From positions 1 through 64,000 of the forward strand of contig JAQWSQ010000071.1 of assembly GCA_029243145.1 (NCBI GenBank): 64,000 nucleotides of DNA, read 5' to 3'. The notes beneath the pieces are model-generated. The model was not told the DNA's origin, searched no databases, and saw nothing but the letters and a program-made list of their open reading frames with translations. The DNA comes from Planctomycetaceae bacterium (GTDB lineage Bacteria > Planctomycetota > Planctomycetia > Planctomycetales > Planctomycetaceae). This document shows, piece after piece, positions 27,739 through 49,216 of this stretch; the first letter of the stretch is position 1; each line of letters opens with the position of its first letter. The translations under genes and the position numbers were made by a program.

Positions 27739-29418
27739 TCACTGCTGCGATTCATAATACTGGTTCAAGACGCGGACCCTCCGTACCTGTGCGGCGGTGA
27801 CGGCTCCCAGAATTCCGAGAGTGACCATAAAGATCACTCCGTAATGTGGCAAAGAGGGTTCTGTGGGATGCCATCGCCATAGACCTAGGTACCCCATGCA
27901 CGAAAGAATTGTCGAACAGACGACCACGCGCACATTGAAAAACATCCCCGATGCCACGACAACCATGGGATATCCAATGACCAGCGGCCCCAAATCTTCG
28001 GGGACTTTCAATAAAACAAACGTGAGTAGCAGCGCATCCGTCGCGGCCCAGGCATATTCCAGATAAGTTTTCACGGTTCGATTCGCCGCGAGGAATTGAA
28101 ATAACCCAATCACAATGGCCCACACGCCGAGAATCGTCATGACCTCATTATGATAGAGCTGGCTCTCGACACCACTGATCCAGTAACGTCCTTGCACGAT
28201 CGTTGCTACAGCGAGCACTCCAGCCCAGCGCGAAGAGGCGGCGGGAAAACGGCGAGACCAACGATTCATGCGGCTGAAGAGAGATGGAGAAGCGGCAAGG
28301 ACATGGTCGCCTCGTAAATAACGTTCCAGGTCATTTGCCAGTTCTTCGACTGTTGCGTACCGTTTGTCGGGATCTTTTTCGAGACATTTCAGACAGATTT
28401 TTTCCAGGTCACGAGGAAGCCCCGAGCGCAAGCGTCGAGGTAACAACGGCTCCTGTTCAATCACTTGGACAATCGTGTCGAGCGGGTGGTCTTTCTTGAA
28501 GGGTGGTTTCCCGGTCAACATTTCGTACAGGATCGCTCCCAGCGAATAGATGTCGCTGCGATTCGTGATTAGCTTCACGCGACCGGCTGCCTGTTCGGGA
28601 GACATATAACTGGGCGTACCGATAATCACTCCGGTTTGCGTCTGTTGGTCATCGTCGTTTCCAAAAATTCGGGCAAGCCCAAAGTCAGTCACCAATGGCT
28701 TATTGTTTTCATCGAGTAATATATTTGATGGTTTCAAGTCACGATGCATGACCTGATGTTCGTGGAGATAATGCACCGCCTGAGCGATGGGAATCAATAA
28801 TGTGGCCGCTTCCTCGATTTCCAGTGGTCCAGATCTCAACCGGTCGGACAACGTATCCCCGTTGACATAATCCATCGCAAAGTAGTGTTGCCCATCGACT
28901 TCACCAATCTCGTGAACGGCGACAATGTGGGGGTGCTTCAATCTGGCAGCAGCTTGGGCTTCGACTTGAAAACGCCGTAATTCTTCGTCATCAGCCAGTT
29001 GATGCGAGCGGATCACTTTGATGGCAACATCGCGTTTGAGATCTGTCTGACGTGCACGGAAAACGACACCCATTCCACCGCGGCCGAGTTCCTCTTCAAT
29101 CTCAAACTTTCCGAAGGTTTGGTTCGGTTTGAGCATGGATGAGCCAAACGAGGAATTCGATCCCGATCCACTGGAAATGATAGGTGCGTACTCAGGAAGA
29201 TTGATGTCGGCGAGTGAACGAGATCGGACGACGCTGAATTCATTCAAATTTCCCAGACACCCGATGAAGGGTTCGATCTCTGGTGATTCATTTAAGATGC
29301 GTTCGCAGGTGGTACGATCTCCCACCTGAAGCGCTTGGGTATAGGCTTCCAATTGCGCAAACAGCAATTCTTCGGACTCATCAGATGGGGTCGGACGGTC
29401 GCCGACATCATTCGACAT
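27739..29418 (-). CDS. membrane serine/threonine protein kinase
   Basis: 559 residues. A short N-terminal region (1-100) precedes a complete kinase domain: glycine loop GRGGMGVVF (112-120), beta-3 Lys134 (VAIKV), HRDLKPSN (225-232), DFG (245-247) and SPE (273-275). About six membrane segments lie in 398-542, so the kinase faces the cytoplasm with a polytopic C-terminal domain that may sense something. The start overlaps the end of the ECF sigma gene by 11 bp, a coupling that suggests the kinase acts on, or with, that sigma factor. Confidence 0.93.
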   Translation of the reverse strand: MSNDVGDRPTPSDESEELLFAQLEAYTQALQVGDRTTCERILNESPEIEPFIGCLGNLNEFSVVRSRSLADINLPEYAPIISSGSGSNSSFGSSMLKPNQTFGKFEIEEELGRGGMGVVFRARQTDLKRDVAIKVIRSHQLADDEELRRFQVEAQAAARLKHPHIVAVHEIGEVDGQHYFAMDYVNGDTLSDRLRSGPLEIEEAATLLIPIAQAVHYLHEHQVMHRDLKPSNILLDENNKPLVTDFGLARIFGNDDDQQTQTGVIIGTPSYMSPEQAAGRVKLITNRSDIYSLGAILYEMLTGKPPFKKDHPLDTIVQVIEQEPLLPRRLRSGLPRDLEKICLKCLEKDPDKRYATVEELANDLERYLRGDHVLAASPSLFSRMNRWSRRFPAASSRWAGVLAVATIVQGRYWISGVESQLYHNEVMTILGVWAIVIGLFQFLAANRTVKTYLEYAWAATDALLLTFVLLKVPEDLGPLVIGYPMVVVASGMFFNVRVVVCSTILSCMGYLGLWRWHPTEPSLPHYGVIFMVTLGILGAVTAAQVRRVRVLNQYYESQQ

Positions 29419-45535: not shown

Positions 45536-48217
45536 TTAAGGGGATGGCTGATGGATTGTGGGGGTTTGAGTTTTTCCGGCGGGTGTTTTGCTGGGCAGAC
45601 AATCAGTCAGAAACTTGTCAAGTTCTTCGGCGGTCAATCGAAGGTCGTGATTGCTGTCCGCGGAACCTCGAAAAGCCTCTGCGAGACACAGTGCAAACAA
45701 GCCGTATCCTTCGTCGGGATGTTCGAGACTTTTCTGATCGGCCTGGCAAGCAGCGATCAAAGTGGTCGACTTGGCTCCCGGCATCAAATACTTGAGTGCC
45801 TCTCCCGAAGATGGTTGGCTTTGCAGACCTTGTTTGGCTTCATCGCTACAAACTTCCAGAAACAAAAACTTATTGGTTGAACTGGAATTTTCCAGAGGCT
45901 CCAAAAGTTTCAGTAATGATAGACCTGTCTCGGCCAGGTTGTCTCGATGGGTATCTTTGACCGCCAGGTAAATATTCTGATCCTGAGTTTGATAAGCGTG
46001 TCCTTTGACGAACACCAGAACTTGTGAATCACGGCGTGAAAACGAGACCGTTTCGTTGATCACCTTCGTGATTTCGGCTTTGGTTTCGTCGATGAGCACC
46101 ACGACACGATCTGCTGCAAACGCATAACGACTGACTAAAGCGGTTTTCAATAACTCGACATCGCGAACCGCGTTACTCGCTGGGGTCAATGTTTGATCGG
46201 TGTAAGATTCATTGGCAATAAGAATCGCCCAGCGATCATTGAGGATGGGACGTTTGGCGTCGACGGCCACTGGTCGAGGGGGACTTGCAGAATCGTCCCA
46301 AGAGATGATCAATCGATCAAATTGTCGAAGATCACCGGGGGTTGCTTTGCTGCTGTTCACGGTGACTTCGCTGGAGTCGTCCAGCGAGAACGAAATTTTT
46401 TGTCGGTCATCCTGCGTCAACGAAAACTGGCCATCCTCAATCGATTGAATGACTCCACCAGTTTGACGTTCTTCGCGAGTCACCAGAATTTCGCGAATTT
46501 CCACATCATAAACGATTCGGATGCGATCCCCTTCTTCAAGATCGGCAACATCCATATTCAGTTTTTCAGTGCCAGAACCGTTTTGTTGAATGAGCACGTC
46601 TTCAGCAAGAGGCAATATTGTGGCGGTTCCCGAAGATTCTGAACGACCGAAACGGACCGTCAATTCGGGCGGGGAAGACATTTTGATTTGTGAAATGTAT
46701 CCAGTCATCTCTTCTGGTCGCAGTGAAACCAACTCGCTCATCATTCTTCCGCTACTTCCGGTGACATCGGGAAGATGCCGCACGCGTACCATGTCGCCGT
46801 CTTTGAGTTCGACGAGTTGCTTTTGTTGGTTATTGATTTTGATTCGTGGACGTTCCGGGACACGCAAAGAGAGAGAACCTCGTTCGGGGCCTTCTTCAAT
46901 CTCAATGGTGATGCGTTTACGCTGCATGTCTCGCGACACCAATCGACCGTAGGTTACTTCCGGGCGATCAACGGTGATCGACAATTGAAACTTGCCTTCC
47001 CCCACTTCGCGTTTCTCAATAATGACACGGTCAAGTTTCTCAATTTCTCTCAGCAAAATGTTTTCGTCGTTATTACGAAAATAGATCAGCGGTGATTCCC
47101 CGACTTTGATTTCTTCAACTCCTGTGAAATGAACATCGTTATAAATAATCACGTTGTTCTCGAGATCAATGTCCCTCACATATCCCACCAAGCGGGGTGC
47201 TTTCGATTGCTGACCGTCTGCTGAATCATCATTTCCTCCCATGAAAAACATCGAAAGTGAAATGATCATGGAAAGCGCAAATGCTCCACCAATGATCATC
47301 AGCCTTTTTTTCTCGGCGGGAGTTCGGTTGCCTTCTCCGTCGTTTTCCTGATCAAGAGATTCCGAGGCGTCTAGTGCCGGTCGAACACTTGTCAGGTTGG
47401 CATCAATATTCAGATCGGAAAGTGCTTCATCGGCCGATTTGTATCGGTTCTTTTGATCTTTTGTGGTGAGTTTCTGGATCACGTGCTGAAGGTCTTCGGG
47501 GACACCCTCTAACACACGATTGATTTCGGGCAACTTTCGGTCGGGAGCCGCATGCCACATCATCCAGGCAATTTGTTCGTTGCTTCCAAAGGCCGACAAG
47601 CCAGGAAACAGACTGTCAAAATTGGTTCCACACAATAATTCGTACGCGCTGAAACCGAGCGAATATAAATCGCTAGCAGGTCCAATCTCACCGAAATCGT
47701 CCGAAACGGTTTCGGGTGCCATGTATTTTGTCGTTCCCTTGAGCAACTCTCCTTCGGAGTCGCTGGCACGTCGCGCCAATCCAAAGTCACCCAGTTTGAT
47801 ACGACGGCGGGCATCGAGCATCAAATTGGCCGGTTTGATGTCTCCATGAACAATTCCTTGCGAATGGAGATACTTAAGGGCTCGTAAACTGTGAGCAAGC
47901 GTCGTTCGCAACGATTTTAAATCCATCTGTCGACCGCTGATTCGGTCTCGCAGATTGGCTTGCATCAATTCGAGGATCACCCAGCCTTTCTCGCGATCCA
48001 AGTCGAACAAAGTGACGATGTTCGGGTGTTGCAGAGAGGCGAGAAGTTGCGATTCCTGCCAATACCGTTCGAGATGCTGAGGTTCGTCCAAAAACTTTTC
48101 GTTAATTTGACGAATAGCCACCTCGCGACCGAGTTCGAGATCGCGGGCGCGAAAGACGGTCGCATACGATCCCGTGCCGATCTTTTCCAATAGCTGGTAG
48201 CGATCTTCCAAACTCAC
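45536..48217 (-). CDS. serine/threonine kinase - beta-repeat - caspase-fold fusion protein
   Basis: 893 residues from GTG 48217, chosen over the upstream frame start because AGGAG lies seven bases before it. Kinase domain (about 5-270): GTGSYATVF, beta-3 position reads VAIR (Arg36 instead of Lys), HGDIKPAN (Asp126), DFG (144-146). One membrane segment (about 306-326). Then four similar beta-rich repeats (about 343-402, 424-492, 506-583, 588-653), three ending in GDxV/I or close variants. The C-terminal caspase fold (about 662-870) keeps a His740 (KGHAYQ) and Cys790 (LEVCSDE) 50 apart, as the catalytic dyad. The kinase faces inside; the caspase part is predicted outside the cytoplasm. Confidence 0.85.
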   Translation of the reverse strand: MSLEDRYQLLEKIGTGSYATVFRARDLELGREVAIRQINEKFLDEPQHLERYWQESQLLASLQHPNIVTLFDLDREKGWVILELMQANLRDRISGRQMDLKSLRTTLAHSLRALKYLHSQGIVHGDIKPANLMLDARRRIKLGDFGLARRASDSEGELLKGTTKYMAPETVSDDFGEIGPASDLYSLGFSAYELLCGTNFDSLFPGLSAFGSNEQIAWMMWHAAPDRKLPEINRVLEGVPEDLQHVIQKLTTKDQKNRYKSADEALSDLNIDANLTSVRPALDASESLDQENDGEGNRTPAEKKRLMIIGGAFALSMIISLSMFFMGGNDDSADGQQSKAPRLVGYVRDIDLENNVIIYNDVHFTGVEEIKVGESPLIYFRNNDENILLREIEKLDRVIIEKREVGEGKFQLSITVDRPEVTYGRLVSRDMQRKRITIEIEEGPERGSLSLRVPERPRIKINNQQKQLVELKDGDMVRVRHLPDVTGSSGRMMSELVSLRPEEMTGYISQIKMSSPPELTVRFGRSESSGTATILPLAEDVLIQQNGSGTEKLNMDVADLEEGDRIRIVYDVEIREILVTREERQTGGVIQSIEDGQFSLTQDDRQKISFSLDDSSEVTVNSSKATPGDLRQFDRLIISWDDSASPPRPVAVDAKRPILNDRWAILIANESYTDQTLTPASNAVRDVELLKTALVSRYAFAADRVVVLIDETKAEITKVINETVSFSRRDSQVLVFVKGHAYQTQDQNIYLAVKDTHRDNLAETGLSLLKLLEPLENSSSTNKFLFLEVCSDEAKQGLQSQPSSGEALKYLMPGAKSTTLIAACQADQKSLEHPDEGYGLFALCLAEAFRGSADSNHDLRLTAEELDKFLTDCLPSKTPAGKTQTPTIHQPSP

Positions 48218-48832: not shown

Positions 48833-49216
48833 TCAAACCTCAAAGGCGGTTGATGTGCTGATGAGGTATTTGTGATCAAATTCTTCTTCGAACGAGTAGA
48901 GACCACAAAAGTCGGAGAGAGAATCCGATTCGTTCTTTTTCATCTCGCCACGTTCGATCAACTCGAACACGAGCCGTCCGAAGTCTTCCGTGGACTCAAT
49001 GCCCCATTGGTGGAAGACGGTGCAAGCCATCAAACCGAATTGTTTGAGGGCCAATTCGCGGATTCCTTCGAGAAGCTGGGACCCGCTGATGTGTGTTTCT
49101 TCTTCCTCATTGGCTTGTTGAGCGTGAATCCGCCGTTGCGTTTGATGCAACGCATCGAACACAAACTTGTAAGCGCTTCGAGGATATTGATGCCGACGTA
49201 ACGAGGACGTTGTCAT
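48833..49216 (-). CDS. Minf_1886 family protein
   Basis: 127 residues. The pattern YPRSAYKFVFDALHQTQR at the start and HISGSQLLEGIRELALKQFG in the middle match the small Minf_1886 family found in planctomycetes and Verrucomicrobia. It is soluble and cytoplasmic. Function unknown. It lies 42 bp upstream of the membrane-anchored hypothetical gene. Confidence 0.8.
   Translation of the reverse strand: MTTSSLRRHQYPRSAYKFVFDALHQTQRRIHAQQANEEEETHISGSQLLEGIRELALKQFGLMACTVFHQWGIESTEDFGRLVFELIERGEMKKNESDSLSDFCGLYSFEEEFDHKYLISTSTAFEV

Follow-up and report, generated by a model that had tools for sequence, protein, structure and literature searches.

A protein of 893 amino acids, encoded on the minus strand at positions 45536 to 48217 of the window (the whole 64,000-nucleotide stretch of planctomycete DNA analyzed here), is best read as a receptor-like kinase member of the planctomycete Tad (type IVc) pilus system that would act in the fashion of PpkA, a reading that draws on analogy and to which we assign a probability of about 0.62. 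The Tad pilus is a thin surface fibre; the protein is probably a controlling sensor of this pilus, and its kinase is a candidate kinase for the FHA-bearing form of the ATPase CpaF. In the proposed mechanism, in which pilus regulation, signalling direction, substrates, and residual activity are what we infer, four OB-folds and a mostly dyad-less caspase fold would bind a periplasmic or pilus component. The extracytoplasmic half would sense this pilus or envelope component and relay its state to the cytoplasmic side, and the cytoplasmic kinase would set the activity of the pilus motor via the FHA domain of CpaF and may act also via the membrane adaptor protein of the operon. In the genus of the window, the gene has moved out of the Tad operon and arginine has replaced the catalytic lysine; for this reason, the kinase domain would there most likely be a weak kinase or nucleotide-binding scaffold in the same system, with output through binding more than phosphorylation. 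A fuller proposition, which we put forward tentatively and at somewhat under even odds, is that the Tad pili of planctomycetes may have a receptor-kinase pathway of their own, in which a kinase-OB-pseudocaspase sensor makes the marks that the FHA domain of CpaF reads, and that in one genus a fixed lysine-to-arginine pseudokinase, its gene relocated, may still serve the pilus.

Domain architecture and membrane topology

The gene starts with GTG at position 48217, with AGGAG upstream, and stops with TAA at 45538 to 45536; this and all features below lie on the minus strand. From N to C terminus, the protein consists of a Hanks-type Ser/Thr kinase domain (residues 7 to 266, 47420..48199; Pfam Pkinase, E = 2e-48), one transmembrane helix (residues 306 to 328, 47234..47302; N-in; Kyte-Doolittle, 2.16), four homologous OB-fold repeats, and a caspase-like Peptidase_C14 domain (residues 655 to 880, 45578..46255). 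The original prediction had described a fusion of kinase, membrane segment, four similar beta-rich repeats, and caspase fold; this is borne out by Pfam, NCBIfam, hhalign, and an AlphaFold2 model of repeat 3, and the gene, Arg36, His740, and Cys790 had all been placed correctly. The closest named records are metagenome-assembled genomes (MAGs) of Planctomycetota (93% identity) and Planctomycetaceae (72% identity). We found sixty-odd homologues spread over four families of the class, and the repeats and caspase fold recur among them; more than 40 have the identical domain order, and the fusion is therefore not a chance one. Near-full-length homologues of the repeat-plus-caspase half occur in about one-quarter to one-third of 170 family genomes (the order-level search covered the identical 170 genomes), and a search with the repeat profile added members from another three families of the class. 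A 2583-aa open frame in L060 proved to be a run of N and was discarded. Homologues from other families (L133 to L142 and L144), and also L049, L056, L059, and L075, carry an extra domain of ~240 residues C-terminal to the caspase-like domain, which is apparently helical and is absent from the window protein and most family members. The form with this domain appears to be ancestral, the domain apparently having been lost in the window and most of the family.

The transmembrane segment stays hydrophobic throughout the 65 aligned homologues (lowest Kyte-Doolittle value, 1.56), and positive charge is greater on its kinase side in 59 of the 65. This conservation and positive-inside pattern support placing the kinase in the cytoplasm and the C-terminal half outside it, in line with the single membrane pass that had been predicted to leave the protease-like domain outside the cytoplasm. 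Such a placement had been called unusual for a caspase homologue, but it is less so than claimed, since inside-TM-outside metacaspases were tabulated earlier (PMC4933709).

The four repeats (residues 342 to 657) are homologous to each other, with pairwise hhalign probabilities of 97 to 99%, confirming the similarity noted from the sequence. Repeat 1 (residues 342 to 420, 46958..47194) and repeat 4 (584 to 657, 46247..46468) align to the other repeats at 97 to 98% and repeat 2 (420 to 502, 46712..46960) at 97 to 99%; repeat 4 also has a DUF5666 match in a relative. Repeat 3 (502 to 585, 46463..46714) is modeled by AlphaFold2 as an OB-fold (pLDDT, 83), and the structural matches of this model are OB-folds (best Z, 8.7; CusF, 7.3), scores that support a shared predicted fold and not a shared function. 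A PDB search with the repeat profile returned nothing below an E value of 0.27, and an AlphaFold2 model of residues 338 to 893 built from three sequences (pLDDT, 35) was set aside. The repeat unit resembles the small OB-fold proteins CusF and DUF5666 in fold but differs in the conserved columns, none of which holds CusF-type His/Met/Trp metal ligands; His144 (region numbering) is the only near-invariant residue of the region. Copper binding by CusF-like repeats is not supported, as the conserved columns lack this His/Met/Trp set.

Linkage to the Tad pilus operon

In relatives, the kinase gene closes an operon with the order CpaB, CpaF with an FHA domain, TadB, TadC, membrane protein, and kinase (Pfam: FHA plus T2SSE, two T2SSF proteins, and an FHA-type membrane protein). 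Of 12 loci belonging to three other families, 11 show this order, one of the 11 (L134) being cut by a contig end after TadC. Within the window's own family we inspected 53 kinase loci, five of which have less than 0.6 kb of upstream sequence and are uninformative. The kinase directly follows the operon membrane-protein gene in 17 of the 48 informative loci, mostly in the same orientation and no more than about 150 bases away, and where upstream sequence suffices, the membrane-protein gene usually closes the run CpaB, CpaF, TadB, TadC (in the linked loci L040, L063, and L064, TadC alone of this run was detected nearby). The gene lies apart from the Tad operon in the other 31 loci, the window's genus included, and the linked loci are dispersed across the kinase tree. 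The window genome has a single gene bearing the repeats, and its complete Tad operon, on contig C231, ends in the membrane-protein gene with no kinase behind it. Because linkage is near-universal outside the family, with polarity taken from these outgroups, the gene's ancestral position would most simply be the Tad operon and the window gene a relocated copy. With a kinase fixed in last place in the Tad operon, how FHA-CpaF pili switch becomes a directly testable question.

The kinase and FHA-CpaF also occur together. Among the 170 family genomes, 57 have the kinase and 54 have FHA-CpaF; 53 of the 58 genomes with either have both, four have the kinase alone, one has FHA-CpaF alone, and 112 have neither (Fisher P = 5e-38, a value inflated by the shared ancestry of the genomes and thus not to be taken at face value). 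Counted by genus, 32 have both, one has the kinase only, one has CpaF only, and 24 have neither. The four genomes with the kinase alone comprise three incomplete ones and G142, which is rated 99% complete, and in the lone CpaF-only genome a contig edge holds a short stretch matching the caspase end of the protein. More telling than the overall P value is the co-absence of the two within genera g5 and g51.

The FHA phosphothreonine motif GR..SRRH..N is intact, or nearly so, in nearly all outgroup CpaFs. It is variable across the window's family and partly eroded in many members; in the window genus, SRRH has eroded to AKRQ, which makes phosphothreonine reading by the window's CpaF doubtful. The FHA domain of the operon membrane protein lacks the canonical binding residues, and the domain is absent from three outgroup sequences aligned. 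This membrane protein (L107:13747-14796 and relatives) carries a near-invariant AKFITDxxGxxLVxLGEDGxLPELxL motif ahead of its transmembrane helix, and the outgroup proteins L141 and L137 have a CxxC...CxxC stretch in place of the FHA domain.

The gene's neighbours in the window had been proposed to form a signalling/protease module with it. Synteny with the flanking membrane protein, beta-propeller, and PSP1 genes holds in the same genus alone, amid a wholly conserved stretch, and we therefore rejected a module with any of them; the putative partner system, the Tad pilus, lies outside the window. Two genes upstream, at window positions 48833 to 49216, is a Minf_1886 family protein (TIGR04138; model name, Plancto_Ver_chp).

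Arginine at the catalytic lysine position

The kinase domain has H124-G-D126, D144-F-G146, and the alpha-C glutamate E55 intact, but homologue alignment places Arg36 (codon CGT, 48110..48112) at the position of the beta-3 catalytic lysine. Arginine, always encoded by CGT, occupies this position in three of three species of the genus, versus lysine in 62 of 62 other homologues; the catalytic beta-3 lysine of Hanks-type kinases is thus missing from the window protein and from its genus. CGT is at least two base changes away from any lysine codon, and the recurrence of arginine in three assemblies makes a sequencing error unlikely. As judged from these alignments, Arg36 is real and confined to one genus, a narrower finding than the arginine-for-lysine exchange first noticed in the window.

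Within the genus, the kinase domain is the most constrained region of the protein. Between the two closest species, dN is 0.006 and dS is 0.546 (dN/dS, about 0.01), and just three or four of the roughly 95 near-invariant kinase positions are altered in the genus. Given this very strong purifying selection despite Arg36, the genus kinase is probably attenuated or scaffolding, not decaying; the combination of Arg36 and constraint is what a retained domain with apparently altered chemistry would show. Another lysine had been suggested as a possible substitute for the one lost. Comparison of the genus with the homologue alignment revealed no replacement lysine near beta-2/beta-3, and the lysines gained in the genus (77, 101, 228, 256, and 260) all sit away from these strands, so this suggestion was dropped. 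The genus-specific exchange is a natural experiment on the need for catalysis.

Caspase-like domain, rival explanations, and known systems

The extracytoplasmic caspase-like domain matches Peptidase_C14 (PF00656) at an E value of 7.8e-15 when scanned alone, although it was not listed in a Pfam scan of the whole protein. It also matches the NCBIfam caspase model, which is a model of EACC1-associated caspases (E = 1e-22), and a PDB search with the caspase profile found MALT1 at 2e-5. His740 (45998..46000; motif KGHAY) and Cys790 (codon TGT, 45848..45850; motif EVCSD) align with the catalytic positions, and the caspase fold with a formal dyad therefore stands as predicted. Caspases typically have GHG around the histidine and DxCHSG around the cysteine; measured against these, the window genus has alanine for the glycine after the histidine (GHAY) and EVCSDE in place of DxCHSG. 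Among the 57 homologues with the domain, His is present in 44, Cys in 12, and both in nine, and on the tree at least nine changes fall on Cys and at least ten on His. Across homologues the domain thus looks mostly degenerate, and it is best read as a reused fold, that is, a protease fold with a repeatedly lost dyad that would serve in the periplasm as a probable binding module. Eight homologues (L076 to L082 and L086) have the kinase, transmembrane helix, and OB repeats and lack the caspase-like domain entirely; at least six of these (L076, L078, L079, L080, L082, and L086) are still inside the Tad operon, L081 is unlinked, and L077 lacks upstream sequence. Another homologue, L083 (G034:C29), is a 1007-aa protein with two caspase-domain matches and has another caspase-domain gene nearby on its contig.

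These counts bear on the original view of an active periplasmic caspase-type protease under cytoplasmic kinase control, a signalling/protease module with a His740/Cys790 dyad. The window genus has both dyad residues and shows purifying selection on the domain (dN/dS, about 0.1), as such a protease would have it, but the motif surroundings are off, some relatives do without the domain, and the protease reading loses its support because the dyad is missing in 48 of the 57 relatives that have it. We consider peptidase activity of the window-genus domain unlikely and the regulated protease improbable. Somewhat less improbable, though still doubtful, is a free-standing envelope-stress or general sensor kinase that in this genus is unconnected to the pilus, the linkage to Tad genes in relatives being ancestral and functionless here. 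This would fit a gene outside the Tad operon, a lost kinase lysine, and an eroded CpaF FHA motif. However, the window genome and all three species of the genus retain both kinase and FHA-CpaF, unlinked genomes retain both as strictly as linked ones, and the FHA serine is also missing in lineages whose kinase has its lysine, which weakens the idea that kinase lysine and FHA motif were lost as one linked event. Very improbable is a role in conflict or defence, in which the protein would be a caspase-type effector like those of EACC1 systems and the kinase would trigger it. This would account for the NCBIfam match, PADLOC kinase models do match the protein, and some conflict systems commonly have caspase domains that are inactive (PMC7159879); against this, the protein is widely conserved in a recurrent pilus-operon setting and in no island, the PADLOC matches are limited to the kinase domain and its close flank, and the operon membrane protein matches no PADLOC family.

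The preferred reading, a pilus-associated receptor-like kinase, is modeled on PpkA, which has an N-terminal kinase, a transmembrane helix, and a periplasmic domain and controls type VI secretion system (T6SS) assembly upstream of Fha (PMC12607579). The two share a cytoplasmic N-terminal kinase, a single membrane pass, a periplasmic C-terminal part, and an envelope machine with an FHA reader. They differ in that the protein described here is tied to the Tad operon, carries OB-folds and a caspase fold outside, lacks the kinase lysine in one genus, and has only putative phosphorylation. Relatives have Tad genes beside the kinase and the window has unrelated ones, with no T6SS genes among them, and we therefore say that the protein works like PpkA, not that it is PpkA. 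In the partner operon, CpaF is arranged as FHA-T2SSE, like the class III CpaF motor ATPases of Tad pili, as FHA-bearing CpaFs have been named (PMC12019362). In Myxococcus, Kil is a Tad-like, FHA-protein-rich system for which a place of the FHA proteins in a signalling cascade was merely suggested (PMC8460266). A term search of these two papers found no kinase partner for either system; here, the operon comes with a fixed kinase gene. Caspase domains go unmentioned in the main text of a survey of planctomycete kinases (PMC11032199), and we found no paper on a kinase-OB-caspase protein or a Tad-operon kinase among open-licence literature, which is weak evidence of novelty.

Inactive caspase domains as such were described earlier (PMC6426788, PMC7159879). 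Pseudo-orthocaspases are bacterial caspase homologues without the His-Cys dyad and, like the domain here, have a caspase p20-type fold with the dyad substituted in most members (PMC6426788). Unlike them, the domain is here fused behind a kinase, transmembrane helix, and OB repeats, and it mostly keeps His and loses Cys (to Ser/Thr), versus the Tyr-Ser and similar dyads common in published pseudo-orthocaspases. The arrangement of kinase, single transmembrane helix, and extracellular repeats is also that of Stk1/PknB-type receptor kinases, and PknB_PASTA_kin is the best NCBIfam match to the full protein; the repeats, however, are OB-folds and not PASTA, and the score is 187 bits against a cutoff of 450. 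The window contains a second kinase gene on the same strand (positions 28228 to 29109; open frame of 597 aa), with 32% identity in the kinase domain.
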